Positions 2 through 6,948 of a stretch of DNA of 14,913 bases are shown here, piece after piece (the first letter of the stretch is position 1; each line of letters opens with the position of its first letter). The stretch lies in contig NYZA01000055.1 of the NCBI GenBank assembly GCA_002686955.1, positions 1 through 14,913 on the forward strand, read 5' to 3'. The position numbers were made by a program, and so were the translations under genes. The notes beneath the pieces are model-generated. The model was not told the DNA's origin, searched no databases, and worked only from the letters and a program-made list of their open reading frames with translations. This stretch comes from Gemmatimonadota bacterium (lineage in GTDB: Bacteria; GCA-2686955).

Positions 2-105
2 TAAGGGTCCGCGCAAGAATGACTTGTCATTTGGCATCCCATCTGAACCACATCTCCGGCACATCTGGGCGCCAAGATGACAAGTTATTCTTGCGCGGAC
101 CCTAA
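2..105 (-). repeat. Palindromic repeat, copy A (short form)
   Basis: The arms at 5-35 and 71-102 are reverse complements over about 31 nt, with one G·T pair (21/86) and one 1-nt bulge. The outer part reads GGGTCCGCGCAAGAAT and the variable 10-nt part is AACTTGTCAT (read on the minus strand). The centre carries the two asymmetric motifs CCCAGATGTG and CAGATGGGATGCC, which set the orientation; copy A is inverted relative to B and C. TAA flanks the GGG...CCC unit on both sides (2-4 and 103-105) in direct orientation, as a 3-bp target duplication would. The stop codon of the gene at 102-1082 is built from the right flank plus the first G of the repeat. No open frame in it looks real. It could be a mobile hairpin (MITE- or REP-like) or a structured 3' end; the repeat and its folding are certain, the nature is inferred. 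Confidence 0.9.
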
Positions 106-1082
106 TTGTCCGCTCCGGTCTTCACCTCCGCGAGATCCACTCCTTCGAATCTGCGGCCTACCAGAGCGAGAGCGAGCGCGCCGACCGCCACGGCGAACCA
201 GAGTGTACAGACCCGCACGATGATCGCAGCCATACCGGCAACGCCTTCGCCGACTCCGAAAAGCTGTTGCGAGAGTCCGGTCAGGCTCGCCTCCGTGAGC
301 CCCAGTCCCCCCGGCAGCATGGCAAGTGCGCCCACCATGGTCGACACGGCATAGGTGAAGCTGGCGGCACCAATCTCCACCGAGCGACCGAAGCCGGCGA
401 AGGTCAGTGCAAAGGCCAGGCACTCCGCCCCCCAGGAGAGAACCGAGAGAGCCGTCGCGATGGCCAAAGGGATCGGTGAGAGGAGTTTCGCCGCACTCCC
501 GTATGCGGTTTCGATTCGTTCGATGTTCCCGCCGACGCGCGGCAGATGGGAAAAGCGACCGAGAGTGCCGATCACCAATCGCCGCGAGCTCACGAAACCG
601 AGTCCGGCCGCGGTCAGCACCGCACCGGCAAGCACGGCGCTTCGCCCGTACTCGAAAACCAGGGCTCCCCACAGAGAGAGCACGACCAACGAGGCCACGT
701 CGGTCAGACGTTCGGCGAGCACGACCGGCGCCACCACCGAGACCCGCGTGCCCAGTCTCGCTTTCACTAGGTACGCCTTGGCCACCTCGCCCAGTTTTCC
801 CGGCGTGATCGAGAACATGAGCCCCGCCAAGAACACCAAGAGGCTGTCGTAGGGAGGGAGCGGCACATCAAGACGATTCAGATAGTAGTGCCACTTCAGG
901 TATCGGACCCCGTAGTTGACGAGCGAAAGGGCCAGCAATAGCGGAAGGAACGACCACCGAAAGCTCGATGTCGCGAGACGGAGCCCCTCCCACCCGATAT
1001 AGATCGAAAGGGCGAGATAGACGATGCCGCCTACCGCGACACCAACCAACATCTTCCGCTTCAGATTGGTCGGGATGGACAA
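102..1082 (-). CDS. UPF0104 / lysylphosphatidylglycerol synthase TM-like membrane protein
   Basis: This is a 326-residue polytopic inner-membrane protein with about eight hydrophobic segments. It matches the LPG_synthase_TM/UPF0104 (YbhN, AglD-like) family: RYLKWHYYL near residue 60, TPGKLGE at 93-99, ERLTD at 124-128 and the signature LPGGLGLTEASLTG at 256-269. Family members act as flippase-like or glycolipid/aminoacyl-lipid-related membrane modules. This one lacks the soluble aminoacyl-transferase half, so lysyl transfer is not implied. The start chosen is TTG at 1082, with a weak AGGT upstream; an ATG at residue 11 is an alternative. It lies 19 nt downstream of the radical SAM gene on the same strand, so co-transcription is likely. 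Its TAG stop is formed at the edge of palindromic repeat A. The family call is firm; the substrate is unknown. Confidence 0.85.
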   Translation of the reverse strand: MSIPTNLKRKMLVGVAVGGIVYLALSIYIGWEGLRLATSSFRWSFLPLLLALSLVNYGVRYLKWHYYLNRLDVPLPPYDSLLVFLAGLMFSITPGKLGEVAKAYLVKARLGTRVSVVAPVVLAERLTDVASLVVLSLWGALVFEYGRSAVLAGAVLTAAGLGFVSSRRLVIGTLGRFSHLPRVGGNIERIETAYGSAAKLLSPIPLAIATALSVLSWGAECLAFALTFAGFGRSVEIGAASFTYAVSTMVGALAMLPGGLGLTEASLTGLSQQLFGVGEGVAGMAAIIVRVCTLWFAVAVGALALALVGRRFEGVDLAEVKTGADN

Positions 1083-1101
1083 AGACGCTACCTGTGCGGG
1101 G

Positions 1102-2523
1102 TCACGACGATGCGAAGAAACGGAGTGAATCCGATATCAACCCGAGCTCGTTGTTGTTGATGATTGCGTAGGGCGCACGGTGTGTCAGGTAGCGCCAGAT
1201 TTGTTTCGGCGAGAGCAGATACTCCAAATAGAACCGCCGCTGTAGACTGAAAAGCTCGGCTTCAGGGATCTCGGAGTAGTTGAATCGCAGGGAGTTGTAG
1301 TGCGACAGATTGCCCAGATTGTCTTCGATGTCGTTTTTCACGTCTTCGTAGAAGGGAGATCCCGGATAGGGAGTGAAAAAGGCGCACTGAATGACATGGC
1401 TTCCGATCTGTTTGGCAAGGGCGAGGGTTTCGAGCGCTTCGGTCTTGGTCTCGGTCGGATTCCCTATCATGTAGTAACAGGTCAAGGCCAGGCCGGCCTT
1501 CTTGACAAGCCGAGCTCCTTCGAGCATCTCCTCCGATGTCTCCTTCTTCTTCAAAACCTTGAGTACACGATCGGAACCGGATTCCACCCCAAAAGTCACG
1601 CCCGCGCAACCCGCCCGCTTCATGCGATCCACGAGATCGGCATCGAGAGCATCTCCCCGTGTCTGGCAAACCCATTTCACACCGAGGTCCCGTCGAATGT
1701 ACTCATCGCATATCGATCGGGCGCGGTCCATGTCGAAAGTGAACACATCGTCTTCGATGAAGATGGCATTGATACCGCAATCGCGTTCCTGCCGCTCCAT
1801 ATCGTCAACGACACGGACCGGTGACATTGCCCGAAACGCCCGGCCGAAAGTCTGTCGCAATGTCTGAGAGCAGTAGATGCAGGGGTACGGGCAGCCGCGA
1901 CTGGTCAGCAGAAAACCCCAGCGCAGTTTTCGAATTGTCTTTACGTGAGAAGAGACGATGATGTACGGATCGAGGTCGAGGAGCGAATGATCGATAGGCG
2001 GATAGTCGTCGAGCTCGTCAACGAGAGGCCGCGCCGGGCTGGTCTCGAATTGGCCACCCCCACCCGTGGCGAACGCGATTCCGGGGATCGAAGCGTCGAT
2101 CGGCTTGCCCGCTCGATAGGCCTCGCAAACGTCGATCGCTGCGCCTTCAGGCTCCGCCATGAGCAGGCCGTCGAAGCCCGCGCCGCTGAAGAGCTGATCG
2201 GGGATGGAGGTCGCGTGTTGCCCCATACCCCAGATCAGCGCGTCGGGAAGATGCCCGGCGATCCGCTTGACGAGATCGTTGACGGTTTCGGCGGTCTGGG
2301 TCATTCCGTCGAGAAAGACCAGATCGGAACGGTGATCGCGTATCCAGTCGACGATTCGCTCGATCGGCCAGGTGTGGACCCATGTGTCGAGCAGGTGGGC
2401 CTCGAAACCTCGCTCTCGGAGCATCGTGGCGGCATACAGGGTCGGAATCGGCCACATTCGATCCTGCGGATGCTGGCGCGGCTCGTCGTAGAAGGGTGCG
2501 ATGCGCACGAAGCTGATGTTCAC
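1102..2523 (-). CDS. B12-binding-domain radical SAM protein
   Basis: The protein has 473 residues. The N-terminal half (about 1-165) is a Rossmann-type cobalamin-binding-like domain, with PIPTLYAATMLRERGFEAHLLD near 25-46, but without the classical DxHxxG cobalamin ligand. The radical SAM core follows: TSRGCPYPCIYC places the CxxxCxxC 4Fe-4S cysteines at 211, 215 and 218, followed by IEDDVFTFD and GVTFGVESGSDRVL. This is the BchE/MiaB-like class used for methyl transfer or cyclisation on lipids, tetrapyrroles and natural products. The start is GTG at 2523, chosen because AGGAG lies 6 nt upstream. It is the first gene of an apparent pair with the UPF0104 membrane protein 19 nt downstream, which suggests a hydrophobic or lipid-linked substrate (inference). 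The exact reaction cannot be read from the sequence. Confidence 0.93.
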   Translation of the reverse strand: MNISFVRIAPFYDEPRQHPQDRMWPIPTLYAATMLRERGFEAHLLDTWVHTWPIERIVDWIRDHRSDLVFLDGMTQTAETVNDLVKRIAGHLPDALIWGMGQHATSIPDQLFSGAGFDGLLMAEPEGAAIDVCEAYRAGKPIDASIPGIAFATGGGGQFETSPARPLVDELDDYPPIDHSLLDLDPYIIVSSHVKTIRKLRWGFLLTSRGCPYPCIYCSQTLRQTFGRAFRAMSPVRVVDDMERQERDCGINAIFIEDDVFTFDMDRARSICDEYIRRDLGVKWVCQTRGDALDADLVDRMKRAGCAGVTFGVESGSDRVLKVLKKKETSEEMLEGARLVKKAGLALTCYYMIGNPTETKTEALETLALAKQIGSHVIQCAFFTPYPGSPFYEDVKNDIEDNLGNLSHYNSLRFNYSEIPEAELFSLQRRFYLEYLLSPKQIWRYLTHRAPYAIINNNELGLISDSLRFFASS

Positions 2524-3186
2524 GGAGGTCTCCTCACGCGCGGGATTCGATCCGAGCTCTAACCCGCAGCCCTCAAGAATAGACTACGCCGGCTCGAGAG
2601 ATGCTCCGATTCTCCAGTTTCCAAGATCCTGGACGCGCGCGAGAGCTGTGGGCCCCGTGCGGGACGAAGGGCAAGAGCGAACGGTCCCATCATCGGGAAC
2701 CGGGAGTTGCGATCCATATATGCGTCGTAAACACTGGTTTCCATGGTTGAACCGGCAGTTACGACAGCTATTCGCGCCGCAACTCGTAGTTTCAAATCGT
2801 GAACGATGAGTTGTGGCGTGAATCGTTGCCTCGATGGGGCCCCGGCGTATGGGGCGCGGGCGTTCGAGGCGCGCCACGCGGCGCTCTTCAGGCTCGGGAT
2901 CCGCGTCACGGCGGCGGCGATCCCGCTGCTCCCCGATCCGCCCGCGGCGCTGATTGCGGCCATGACGGCGGCGCTTGTCTCCATGGCCGCGGGCGGCAGG
3001 TGTGCGTGGCGGCCGAAAGCGTTGGCGCGGGTGAACGCTGCGTGAGGCGGGGCGCGTCGCGCCGCGGCGCGGCGTTTCGAGAGCAATTAGAGCGGGAAGC
3101 TCGGGGGAGCGGAGCGACGGGGCTTGCCTGGAAATGAAGGGCGGCGCGCGGCGAATCAGTGCTCGGTCCTCCCGAGGATCTCACGC
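2524..3186. other. Intergenic stretch, no confident gene
   Basis: About 660 bases separate the radical SAM start from palindromic repeat B. The first 270 bases have ordinary composition and should hold the radical SAM promoter, but I see no convincing -35/-10 pair. From about 2820 to 3160 the GC content rises sharply, with many GCG/GGCG runs, unlike the flanking genes. One plus-strand frame (2806-3045) is coding-like and is listed separately. Other frames here, including a cysteine-containing minus frame at about 2584-2877, have no recognisable domain, ribosome site or family motif. No tRNA or rRNA was recognised. Confidence 0.5.
2806..3045 (+). pseudogene. Possible membrane-protein gene fragment
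   Basis: This 79-codon plus-strand frame has strong G/C at third codon positions from about 2853 on (GCG, CTC, ATC, CCG, GCC), as a real GC-rich gene would. It encodes an amphipathic segment (RLGIRVTAAAIPLLPDPPAAL), then a hydrophobic stretch (IAAMTAALVSMAAG) and a basic tail (GRCAWRPKALARVN). The layout faintly resembles the middle of NnrS-type membrane proteins, but this is an impression by eye and may be wrong. There is no good ribosome site, the first 15 codons do not fit, and the frame stops where a membrane protein would be expected to continue. The GCG-heavy codon use differs from neighbouring genes. It may be a decayed or imported fragment, or only a GC-rich accident. Confidence 0.22.
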
Positions 3187-3372
3187 TTAGGGTTCGCGCA
3201 AGAATAGAATGCTGTTTTGGCGCCCAGATGTGCTTCAGATCTGGGCGATCGGTGAGTTCCGAAACCGCAGGAATAGTAGGGCTATTTCGAGGGTTTCGGG
3301 GCTTGCCGATCGGCCGGAGATGGAGTGCAGATGGGATGCGAAAATAGCATTCTATTCTTGCGCGAACCCTTA
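3187..3372 (+). repeat. Palindromic repeat, copy B (long form)
   Basis: This is the longest of the three copies. The outer arms, from 3190 and back from 3369, pair over about 32 nt: GGGTTCGCGCAAGAAT, then the variable part AGAATGCTGT (3206-3215) pairing with 3344-3353 with one G·T pair. Next come the unpaired conserved motifs CCCAGATGTG and GCAGATGGGATGC. Inside them lies a second stem: 3246-3266 pairs with 3292-3312 as 17 Watson-Crick and 4 G·T pairs. An apical stem pairs 3270-3277 with 3281-3288 around a 3-nt loop. A competing small hairpin joins CGCCCAGAT (3221-3229) to ATCTGGGCG (3239-3247). TTA flanks the GGG...CCC unit directly on both sides (3187-3189, 3370-3372). It lies about 245 nt upstream of the beta-helix gene and about 140 nt after the coding-like fragment. 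Confidence 0.9.
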
Positions 3373-3616
3373 TGTCGAAACGTCAGCTGGCTGACTCCAT
3401 CCGTTGACGGTCCCCGTGACCTGGGTTGCCAATCGGCCCCATTCCCGGGCGCTAGAGATCGGCCTAGAACTCACAATACGTTGATCTACCGTGGTTTAAG
3501 GGCGCCGGAGCGCCGAGACTACGTTTTGGCACCGCGATTGCGAGACATGGCCCCGCCGCCGGCGGCCGGCGCCGTCCGCGGAACCCCCAGACCAGAATCA
3601 CCACACGGAGGACTAG

Positions 3617-5473
3617 ATGTCCAATTCTCGATTCAACGGAATCCACCGGCGCCTTGTCGCGCCATCCATCGCCTTCGTCACCCTGGCCGGCTCCGCTCAT
3701 GCCTATCGCGCTACGAACGGTGTCGAAGAGTTCGACATGGCCTACGCCTTGGATGACGTGATGACGCTGATGGAATGGGATTGGATCTTCAATCCAGCGG
3801 TCATCACCGTTCCGGACGACTATCCGTCGATCAGCGAAGCGCTCGATCACGCCGCCTACTACAACCAGAAGATCTTGGTGAAGGAGAGCCCAGACGGCAA
3901 GTACACCGAAAACGTCACGATCCTCGCCGAGGATTTCAGCAACCTGACGATCCAGGGAGCATGCGGATCGCTTCCCGAAGTGACGTCGGCCGAAAACGGT
4001 ACTCCAGTCTTCCACATCATCAACGAAGACAACGTCACCACGACGATCAATATTCGCAATCTTACGATCACCGGCGCTTATGGCGGCGACATCGCCGGCG
4101 TTCAGGTCTCGACGTCCAACGACGACTGGGACGCGGTGACAACGACCGTTAATCTCTCTCGTCTCCATATCACGGACTGCAGCGTTGGAATCCAAACCGG
4201 TGTTCGAACCGGGACCTATTCCTGCTCCACGGGCCATTGGGGATCGATCAACGCGACCTTGCTGCTCCAACCGATTACGGAGATCACGGTTGATCGATGC
4301 TCGGTCCTTGGTTGCTACTCGGACGGTATGAACCTCTGGCGCGCCGAGGGTGAGATTCTATCGACGATCATCGCCAACAACGGCGGCGAGGGCATTCATA
4401 CCACGAACTTCAAAGGCACTGTTCGCAACAGCATCATGATCGGTCATTCCGACAACCAGATGCACTTGCACTTCCCGCGTGAAGTACTCTTCGTCAACAA
4501 TTTGGTGGCCGCGGCTTACGGCATCGATCCTCTCGGCGACGGCCTGGTAGTCGAAGGTACCGACCACGATGCCGATCCCTTGCCGATCATTGGAGTGTAC
4601 AACAACATATTCGCCGGGAACGACAATGCCGGTGCAAGGATCGGATTCGTTCGACTAGTCGAGTCTACTAATCCTTGCGAGGAAGAGATCATCGCTTGCC
4701 GGGCGCGCTTCTTCAACAACGTGTTCTTCGAGAACTCCCCACAGGGCGAGAAGTATGCAATGCACTCGAGCCACCAAGATGCCAACGAAATTAGCAACTG
4801 GATGGCGTACAATTTTTTCTACAACAACAACGGAATGGACTACGATTCCTCGGTCATTACTCCGGGCGCCGGCAATGTCTACGGCACGAGTCCTCTGTTC
4901 ACCGCCGACCCCGATGACGAGGTGTTGGAATCGGAGATAGACGCGCCCTTGATTCGGAATGCCGCGATGGGTGTTCTGCCGCAGGTGTCATCGCCTCTGA
5001 TCGATGCGGGGCACCCCATAGCCAGCCTGAACGACGTTTCCAGCTATGCGGCGGGCGCGGCCCGCAACGATATCGGCATCTTCGGTGGGCCTTGGGCGTC
5101 GCCGGGGCCGCTGAGCGCCGGCGCGCGCCCAACGCGCTGTCTCTGGCTGATTGCCGACTTCGTTCTGGATCGCATCTTCATCCAAAACGTACTGTACTCC
5201 GAGCCGGGAGGTGATCCGTGGGCGGATAAGATCGTCTACACCGATCCCCGATCTCAGCGAACACTGACTGTCTACTGGGTACCGGAAGGCATGAAGGCCA
5301 ACTGGCTCGGCGACGCGCGGGACGTGCAGTACCTTCCGCTGGGCGACAAGAGGGTCAAGCTCTATCGCACGCCGGAAGAGCGCGCGGAGCTCAATCCCGT
5401 GACCGCCCGCCGCGAGTTCGAAGTGAAGCAGTGGCCCTACGAAGAAGACGTGCCGCTTCCGCCGATCGAGTAG
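3617..5473 (+). CDS. Secreted right-handed parallel beta-helix protein
   Basis: The protein has 618 residues and is the only plus-strand gene. A signal peptide (RRLVAPSIAFVTLAGSAHA, predicted cut after residue 29) is followed by a helix-entry segment (VITVPDDYPSISEALDHA). Many short beta-strand rungs with N-rich turns follow (ITVDRCSVLGCYSDGMNLW, GVYNNIFAGNDNAGARIGF, FFNNVFFENSP) up to about residue 510. The helix closes with SPLIDAGHP and ARNDIGIFGGP, typical of pectate-lyase-like surface helices. About 105 residues follow, non-helical, with one hydrophobic patch (LWLIADFVLDRIFI), and could be an anchoring or interaction tail. Such folds bind or cleave polysaccharides; no catalytic triad is identifiable. 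The start is supported by GGAGG 5 nt upstream of ATG. It is convergent with the GH114-like gene, with 4 nt between stop codons. Confidence 0.87.
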   Translation: MSNSRFNGIHRRLVAPSIAFVTLAGSAHAYRATNGVEEFDMAYALDDVMTLMEWDWIFNPAVITVPDDYPSISEALDHAAYYNQKILVKESPDGKYTENVTILAEDFSNLTIQGACGSLPEVTSAENGTPVFHIINEDNVTTTINIRNLTITGAYGGDIAGVQVSTSNDDWDAVTTTVNLSRLHITDCSVGIQTGVRTGTYSCSTGHWGSINATLLLQPITEITVDRCSVLGCYSDGMNLWRAEGEILSTIIANNGGEGIHTTNFKGTVRNSIMIGHSDNQMHLHFPREVLFVNNLVAAAYGIDPLGDGLVVEGTDHDADPLPIIGVYNNIFAGNDNAGARIGFVRLVESTNPCEEEIIACRARFFNNVFFENSPQGEKYAMHSSHQDANEISNWMAYNFFYNNNGMDYDSSVITPGAGNVYGTSPLFTADPDDEVLESEIDAPLIRNAAMGVLPQVSSPLIDAGHPIASLNDVSSYAAGAARNDIGIFGGPWASPGPLSAGARPTRCLWLIADFVLDRIFIQNVLYSEPGGDPWADKIVYTDPRSQRTLTVYWVPEGMKANWLGDARDVQYLPLGDKRVKLYRTPEERAELNPVTARREFEVKQWPYEEDVPLPPIE

Positions 5474-5477
5474 ATCC

Positions 5478-6806
5478 TCAGCGTGTGGTGCAAAGGGCTC
5501 TCCGTCTTTCCCTTCGTGACGAGGGGGAGGGCGGGGAGCTTTCTGCATCCAGGTCGAGCACAACCGACTCGTGCTCGCTCAGCTCCAGATCGACCATCGC
5601 GGTGGCCACGTCGCCGCTCTTGCTTGCCGTGACGAGCCACTGCCCCTCGGCAACCATGCGAAACTCGTGCGTGCCGCTCGCCGGCGTAACCGCGGTCTGA
5701 AGCGCGGCGGGGGATGGAGACTGTCGCTCGATTTCCAGATCGGCGTTGTTCACCAAGAAAGAGCCTCTCATCACAGTGCATGTGATTCGGCCGTCCGACC
5801 ATGGCTCGTGGCCATCGTTGACGGTCATTCGGTCGAGATCCACACGTGTGCAGTACGGAATGTAATCTTTGTAGTTCATGCAGATGTCGTAGGTCTCGTC
5901 GATCTTGCTGTTCTGGTTCGCGTAGTCTACTTCGAGCACGAGCCCGAAGCCCCAAGGTCCGGCCGTGAGGTAACGGTCCAAGTTCTCCTCGGTCCAGAAG
6001 CGATCGTTGTTGCTCGTGCGTTGATTGGTCGCCTCGAAATAGGTCTCTTCCTTGCCGATGCCGTTCACGCCCGCCACGTACTCCGGGTGGTCCTCGGCGA
6101 TCTCCTCGGCATTCTGGGGGAAGATCGCGAAGTCGTCCCCTTTGGCGGCTCGCGCGTAATCGGCGAGTGCGAGCACCAGGTCGACCATCGCCTGGCGGGC
6201 CGCCGCCTTACTGCCCAGCTCTTGACGGGCGTAGCTTTCGAGATAGGAATCGACGAGATCGAGATAGATCCCATCGAAGTCCTGAGCGAGGATTCGGTCG
6301 AGATAGGCATCCGGAGATCCGAAGAGGATCGCCTGCCACTCACTATCCCAGTATTTCACCTTGTAGTTCCCGGGCCATTGCGGGTTCTCCGAGACGATGA
6401 ACTCCGGGTCACCGACCTGCCACCAGGGCTCCCAGTAGAAGCGGTAATCCTCGGCCTCGCCGATCGACAGATAGGCGACCATGCGGCGGGGACCGTTCGG
6501 GCCGGTGCGGGCGGAATGCACTTCGGCCGCGGTCCATTCGGTCGCTCCGGTACCGTCGGCGGAGTAGTCCACGACGGCGAGGTCGAAATGACTCGATCCG
6601 ATCTCATCGAGGCTGTTGCCGGAATACCCCTGGAGTTGGTAAGTCCAGGTCTCGATATCGGCCCAGTCGCGCTCCTGCGCGGGCGCGGTATGACGCACCG
6701 GAGTCTCGGGGATGCCCTGTATCGCCGGTGCCGCGGTGGAGAAGGGGACCAGAAGAAGCGGGACGGCGAGCAGAATGACCGAAGGTGGAAACAGCGACTT
6801 GCGCAT
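5478..6806 (-). CDS. GH114-like secreted glycoside hydrolase
   Basis: The protein has 442 residues from the ATG at 6806, which has GGAG 8 nt upstream and opens a good signal peptide (MRKSLFPPSVILLAVPLLLV, cut near residue 26). Residues about 47-335 match the GH114 / TM1410-type (beta/alpha) barrel: WTYQLQGYSG, FDLAVVDYSADG, MVAYLSIGEAEDYRFYW near 109-125, DGIYLDLVDSY near 178-188 and FAIFPQNAEE. The characterised activity of this family is endo-alpha-1,4-polygalactosaminidase; here the substrate is inferred only. A C-terminal beta-sandwich (about 340-422, regulatory-domain-like) follows, then a low-complexity tail SSPPSPSSRRERRRALCTTR encoded by the opposite strand of a hairpin. It is probably last in a minus-strand group after the FG-GAP gene, with repeat C between them. 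Confidence 0.85.
   Translation of the reverse strand: MRKSLFPPSVILLAVPLLLVPFSTAAPAIQGIPETPVRHTAPAQERDWADIETWTYQLQGYSGNSLDEIGSSHFDLAVVDYSADGTGATEWTAAEVHSARTGPNGPRRMVAYLSIGEAEDYRFYWEPWWQVGDPEFIVSENPQWPGNYKVKYWDSEWQAILFGSPDAYLDRILAQDFDGIYLDLVDSYLESYARQELGSKAAARQAMVDLVLALADYARAAKGDDFAIFPQNAEEIAEDHPEYVAGVNGIGKEETYFEATNQRTSNNDRFWTEENLDRYLTAGPWGFGLVLEVDYANQNSKIDETYDICMNYKDYIPYCTRVDLDRMTVNDGHEPWSDGRITCTVMRGSFLVNNADLEIERQSPSPAALQTAVTPASGTHEFRMVAEGQWLVTASKSGDVATAMVDLELSEHESVVLDLDAESSPPSPSSRRERRRALCTTR
5492..5542 (+). terminator. Strong plus-strand RNA hairpin after the beta-helix gene
   Basis: Starting 18 nt after the beta-helix stop, 5498-5516 pairs with 5520-5538 across a 3-nt loop (TGA): 14 Watson-Crick and 5 G·U pairs, with no mismatch. 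The stem extends by AAAG (5492-5495) with CTTT (5539-5542) after a 2-nt bulge. All imperfections are G·U pairs in plus-strand RNA; in minus-strand RNA they would be A·C mismatches, so the structure is specific to the plus transcript. No U-run of intrinsic-terminator length follows. It may stop transcription, protect the 3' end, or limit read-through into the convergent gene. It overlaps codons for the tail of the GH114-like protein. Confidence 0.6.
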
Positions 6807-6853
6807 TGATGCAGCTCCGGTTGTTGTTCTTGGTCTCTGGTAGATCGGACTTC

Positions 6854-6948
6854 TTAGGGTCGGCGCAAGAGTAACTAGCGATTTTGGCGCCCAGATGTGG
6901 TGCAGATGGGATGCCAAAATCGCTAGTTACTCTTGCGCCGATCCTTTA
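6854..6948 (+). repeat. Palindromic repeat, copy C (short form)
   Basis: The arms at 6857-6888 and 6914-6944 pair almost perfectly, with a single G·T pair near the base. The outer part is GGGTCGGCGCAAGAGT and the variable part AACTAGCGAT (6873-6882) matches its partner at 6919-6928 exactly. The centre is CCCAGATGTG then GTGCAGATGGGATGCC, the same orientation as copy B. TTA stands at 6854-6856, and TTA (after one extra T) at 6946-6948; the latter, read on the minus strand, is the TAA stop of the FG-GAP gene. The copy sits between the FG-GAP gene and the GH114-like gene, so in a minus-strand transcript it would form an intercistronic or 3'-end hairpin. Confidence 0.9.

Follow-up and report, generated by a model that had tools for sequence, protein, structure and literature searches.

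A dispersed ERIC-like family of palindromic mobile elements with an interior that folds on one strand

Three palindromes, A, B and C, occur in a 14,913-nucleotide stretch of a Gemmatimonadota genome, the whole of which is called the window here. In each of them the two arms change together, which raises the question of whether folding is selected or one arm is copied from the other, the two options offered by an initial annotation of the window. The palindromes and their shared arm changes are real. The variable 10-mers match the opposite arm at 9, 9 and 10 of 10 positions in A, B and C, and the outer stem carries the paired changes described, with TTC in both outer arms of B and GG...GAG in both arms of C. 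The arms of A also pair as reported, the letters of its left arm being GACTTGTCAT, not AACTTGTCAT. The copies, and the parts of the full-length one, are as follows.

5..102, foldable strand minus: copy A, a 98-bp short form with the inner hairpin deleted
3190..3369, foldable strand plus: copy B, a 180-bp full-length element (covariance model E 9e-33)
3190..3216, plus strand: left terminal inverted repeat of B, containing the subfamily-specific 10-mer
3246..3312, plus strand: inner hairpin of B, CGATCGGTGAGTTCCG... / ...CGGGGCTTGCCGATCG, G-U-paired on the plus strand
3343..3369, minus strand: right terminal inverted repeat of B
6857..6944, foldable strand plus: copy C, a short form of about 88 bp, CTAGCGAT subfamily

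Copy A is inverted relative to B and C. It is flanked by the direct repeat TAA at 2-4 and 103-105, and the stop codon of a minus-strand gene (102-1082) adjoins it. Copy B has the target duplication TTA at 3187-3189 and 3370-3372. Copy C lies between TTA at 6854-6856 and TTTA at 6945-6948, that is TTA/TTA plus one extra T, and its arms read GGGTCGG on the left and GGATCGG on the right. Elsewhere in the window, a 127-aa open reading frame at 12576-12959 matches only the N-terminal dimerisation domain of the Glu/Leu/Phe/Val dehydrogenase (PF02812) and is apparently a truncated gene.

The palindromes are members of a dispersed family. A search of the 4.28-Mb genome (84.5% complete) for the arm 20-mer GGGTCCGCGCAAGAATAACT, allowing up to 3 mismatches, gave 80+71 matches, which is far beyond chance; the reversed-pattern control gave 0. 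BLAST, pattern and covariance-model searches combined gave about 112 loci, truncated copies and lone ends counted. Copy statistics rest on the arm copies among the matches listed, from which a few copies may be missing. Many contigs end within the palindrome (for example C18, C81, C96, C131, C138, C156, C195, C228, C244, C260 and C266), so the assembly under-represents the family. Three size classes are found, full-length copies of 179-182 bp and deletion forms of 87-99 bp and of 40 bp. What the short forms lack, compared with the long form, is the inner hairpin, which lies between AGATGTG-like direct repeats; they can be read as recurrent deletions. The 40-bp minimal forms, at C8:32786-32825, C176:6984-7023 and C86:773-812, consist of the two outer arms only; their target duplication is exact in two and agrees at 2/3 bases in C86. 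A second repeat (CCGACCTCCCCGCGCGCAGTGCCACACTAGAGTGGCCTGCAG...) splits two palindrome copies at different loci, C17:5509-5745 (L096) and C212:5772 (L083), and is probably another mobile repeat family nested within the palindromic element.

The family was seen in this genome only. BLAST of 59 other genomes found no copy, covariance-model searches of 115 other genomes and of a same-family genome gave no match, and an exact 26-mer of the element was absent from the named genome collection. Rfam gave no match above the gathering threshold in the window; its best sub-threshold score was 23.7 bits, compared with 60 for a full copy.

Copies are concentrated at the 3' ends of genes. With gene ends taken from a hexamer-scored gene prediction, the distance to a predicted 3' end is at most 10 bp for 20/50 copies, compared with 3.5% for random positions, and 14 copies have their target duplication at or next to a predicted stop codon. 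The foldable strand is antisense to the neighbouring upstream gene in 16 cases and sense in 6.

The element has the features of a MITE. It is short (40-182 bp) and dispersed, and in 55 paired copies the ends of about 27 bp are inverted relative to each other, forming terminal inverted repeats. Exact 3-bp duplications flank 26 of these 55 copies, while shuffled flanks gave a mean of 9.5 and a maximum of 19 in 5000 shuffles. The insertion target is C-TWA-G and the duplication is the 3-bp TWA. The element carries no transposase gene of its own, the sole transposase found within a copy being that of a guest insertion sequence (IS) described below. The family is a new one of non-autonomous palindromic mobile elements, MITE in kind and ERIC-like. 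No autonomous relative with the same ends was found in the assembled genome, 84.5% complete. A search of it with PF01609 (DDE_Tnp_1) gave two partial matches, neither with matching ends, and PF13359 (DDE_Tnp_4) gave no match. Lone arm ends were considered as a trace of the parent and rejected; those examined either lie beside ordinary genes or belong to truncated copies.

The outer 27 bp or so hold the variable 10-mers, and it is here that the initial annotation had placed arm coupling. Across the genome the 10-mers form a few subfamilies, TTGTCAT, CTAGCGA, GAATGCTA, TTCCCAT and GTGGTGAG. The same arm class is present on both sides in 44/49 copies (permutation mean 23.5, maximum 32), and five copies are hybrids of two different classes. 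Arms therefore match between subfamilies. Within the main class of 31 copies, however, they diverge mostly independently, with 73 one-arm changes and 12 both-arm changes, of which 5.5 were expected. Departures from Watson-Crick pairing in the outer 27 bp show no preference for either strand, the ratio of G-U to A-C being 11:9 for types shared between copies and 9:7 for private ones. This balance, together with independent arm decay, points to matched DNA ends founded per subfamily rather than a maintained stem. The outer-arm match is what paired transposase sites would give and is no evidence for folding. A further, deeper subfamily is GGGTCGGCGAAGAAAT. In the deep subfamily at C123 (L134), C125 (L135) and C144:21406 (L136), 11-nt units have been exchanged between arms; the exchange concerns the GTGCCGC and GTGGTGC types and keeps same-strand G-U pairing.

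The interior behaves differently from the outer arms; it co-varies, and on one strand only. Copies were oriented by sequence with the GGCGCCCAGATGTG side first. The mean RNA MFE is -127.8 kcal/mol for the foldable strand and -96.3 for its complement, the foldable strand being lower in 30/30 long copies and in 11/11 held-out copies. RNAalifold gave -116.4 and -54.1 for the two strands, and DNA folding parameters favour the same strand in 30/30 copies (-64.3 versus -53.5). Within the interior hairpin an A is bulged, and two-by-two internal loops of AG/AG recur about every 11 nt, or about one turn. Arm differences such as GCGCCC/GGGATGC and GTGCCGC/GTGGTGC amount to pairing through G-U. In the alignment of 29 long copies, 96.0% of cells are paired, against 91.8% in shuffles, and double changes that keep pairing occur in 29/72 pairs. 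The covariation score is 0.218 compared with 0.135 in shuffles, and was reached by 0/500 of them. At columns 65-117, 66-116, 69-113 and 70-112 the series C-G, U-G, U-A is found at one and the same pair. The segment first taken for a conserved centre is thus the one with strong strand-specific covariation through G-U intermediates, and of the two original options folding gains support, in the interior instead of the segment for which it was proposed.

When this fold was selected can be asked by comparing shared and private changes. A transition on either side of a Watson-Crick pair produces G-U or A-C, with equal odds if the strand is irrelevant. Variants were classed as shared if present in at least two copies and private if in one. 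The interior has 22 G-U and 1 A-C shared types, and 12 G-U and 11 A-C private ones (Fisher p=0.0017). A cell-based definition gave 341:4 for shared and 11:9 for private changes, and 11 copies outside the alignment have 89 G-U and 4 A-C interior cells. The balance of private changes rejects strand-biased mutation as the source of the G-U excess. It also implies little or no selection on resident copies. On population-genetic grounds we infer that the fold looks to have been filtered while copies spread and to be relaxed in resident copies; mild purifying selection on residents that has yet to have time to act could possibly produce the same contrast.

ERIC, also called IRU or RU-1, a 127-bp enterobacterial palindromic MITE (PMC2229807, PMC2759123) whose mode of movement is described as not elucidated (PMC2759123), was used as a yardstick. 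According to published surveys, such repeats can as a rule fold on either strand, except where G-U pairs are indispensable (PMC2267715). Loci from named enterobacterial genomes contained the exact ERIC core at 116 places, which yielded 64 distinct 127-mers free of gaps. In 63/64 one strand folds better (-54.9 versus -41.9), and the G-U to A-C ratio is 16:1 for shared and 6:6 for private types (p=0.011). The palindromic family and ERIC combined gave CMH p=6e-5. Local alignment of the 127-bp ERIC consensus to the element was no better than alignment to shuffles. No report of the shared/private contrast was found in the open-access literature.

The reading we favour, with some confidence though well short of certainty, is a MITE that is mobilised in trans by way of its ends and whose one-strand hairpin matters in cis while copies spread. 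The outer 27 bp or so would be paired DNA sites for a transposase supplied in trans, which would make the 3-bp TWA target duplication in the C-TWA-G context; a need for both ends to match would leave subfamilies with matched ends. The interior would specify a long one-strand hairpin held by G-U pairs and the AG/AG two-by-two loops. Spreading copies would be filtered for this fold, and resident chromosomal copies would lose it at the neutral ratio. The fold would act in cis during spread, most likely as an element-derived RNA and less likely as single-stranded DNA. RNA is somewhat favoured because the abundant G-U pairs would preserve a hairpin in RNA without making the DNA a perfect palindrome. 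Read-through mRNA is not the obvious source of such an RNA, since the foldable strand is mostly antisense to the upstream gene. The short forms lacking the inner hairpin are numerous; a strict need for the full fold would therefore require that all of them arose by deletion in place.

The folded strand might instead be single-stranded DNA, with the element moving or replicating as a hairpinned strand whose two ends pair to give a single duplex site for recognition, comparable to integron attC sites or the ends of IS200/IS605. DNA itself is the most natural carrier of a cis requirement during spread, and DNA parameters select the same strand in every long copy. However, double-strand insertion of the DDE type is what the 3-bp duplications and the symmetric terminal repeats suggest; no G-T preference is seen in the ends, which would have to pair in such a hairpin, and many G-T pairs are costly in DNA. 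We regard this possibility as rather unlikely.

A process without any folding selection is improbable. Template switching or hairpin-mediated arm copying would re-perfect the palindromes, and the subfamilies would be amplified founders. Stems are known to be restored by template switching (PMC8794818), and arms that match by subfamily are in keeping with it. Copying from one arm to the other is best seen in this family at C242:23624-23712 (L027) and C8:22720-22898 (L044), where the inner marker GGCGCC of one arm is on both sides; the first has the same arm type on both sides and the second is a partial copy. Copying does not predict one-strand G-U far above A-C, the C-G, U-G, U-A series at the same pair, or fixed differences between the arms for which G-U is the only pairing. 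It would leave no G-U intermediates confined to one strand and is therefore not the main route in the interior. As a general cause arm copying is rejected there and retained as a rare event; in the terminal repeats it is possible.

A host function, with the hairpin retained because it gives neighbouring genes a 3'-UTR structure or a terminator, is more improbable still. The strong enrichment at gene 3' ends, insertions at stop codons included, would suit it, but this location is explained by insertion into C-TWA-G, which contains stop codons, together with purging from genes. The orientation of the foldable strand, more often antisense to the upstream gene, gives a 3'-UTR role no support, and private mutations in resident copies have no G-U preference.

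The guest IS, 2.4 kb long, lies in palindrome arms and encodes a PF21804 (Transposase_29) transposase (E 1e-117) and a helix-turn-helix protein of 173-182 aa. No paper on the Transposase_29 (PF21804) family was found in the open-access literature. Its occurrences in the genome are:

C108:63483-65966 (L105): full copy of the IS
C99:1-1878 (L103), C102 (L104) and C22 (L130): PF21804 matches
C131:1649 (L107): short remnant of the IS

The arm in C108 reads GGGTCCACGCAAGAATAACTT[IS]AACTTGTCATTTGGCATCCC, with the 5 bp AACTT duplicated. In two other genomes, G210 and G149, complete copies terminate at CAGNNCTCCTGA; the 5 bp AAGTT are duplicated around them and their flanks are unrelated, which also holds for the flanks of further IS ends in G257 and G265. 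The target duplication of the IS is thus the 5-bp AASTT. PF21804 matches adjoin a palindrome arm in 4/4 places in the genome (C108, C99, C102 and C22), as does the C131 remnant, and the palindromes are preferred landing sites for this IS, as REPs are for ISPpu9 (PMC8450116). That the IS, which shares arm sequence in that GGGTCCGCGCAAGAATAACTT precedes its ends in the source genome, is the autonomous parent is hardly credible and is refuted by its own ends and 5-bp target in relatives and by its insertion into the element, where it splits the C108 arm.

If the preferred reading of a trans-moved element filtered for its fold is extended, ERIC-like palindromic elements generally, the new family included, might spread through obligatory folding of one specific strand, as RNA or single-stranded DNA. 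We put this forward tentatively and as doubtful at present. Were it true, the hairpin would belong to the machinery of movement instead of being an incidental result of inverted repeats. The shared/private comparison of G-U with A-C separates spread-time selection from resident-copy selection by sequence alone. Its outcome agreed between two families that are unrelated and differ in target duplication, and it is repeatable on any palindromic repeat; if that outcome holds, mobility assays should seek a folded RNA or single-strand form. A host function does not follow from covariation in a repeat family alone.

Among known systems, the IS1031 group of the IS5 family and the PIF/Harbinger transposons have a 3-bp TNA/TWA duplication and G-rich termini. 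The element resembles them in its TWA duplication and G-rich termini; no matching transposase was found in the assembled genome. It resembles REP/REPIN sequences with their RAYT transposases in being a high-copy extragenic palindrome. REPs, however, measure 20-40 bp and carry a GTAG or CGTC tag (PMC3733652), while the element reaches 182 bp and has a 3-bp target duplication, features that place it outside that group. Correia/NEMIS, YPAL (RU-2), RUP and BOX, at 100-200 bp, are like the element MITEs that are palindromic or folded; they have long and short variants, and their transcripts are predicted to form stem-loops (PMC2229807, PMC3049150). In this comparison, made by description, the termini of Correia/NEMIS and ERIC are TA (PMC2229807, Table 1), unlike those of the element. 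ERIC differs further. It has TA and TATACCC where the element has a 3-bp TWA duplication and GGGTYCGCGC ends, and the element has a nested inner hairpin and recurrent deletion forms and is known from one genome only. The two are alike in size range, full-length palindromic hairpin, intergenic position, non-autonomy, target duplication and the lack of a proven mobiliser. They also share a strand-specific fold, an excess of shared G-U over A-C and neutral private changes, a likeness of analogy rather than membership.
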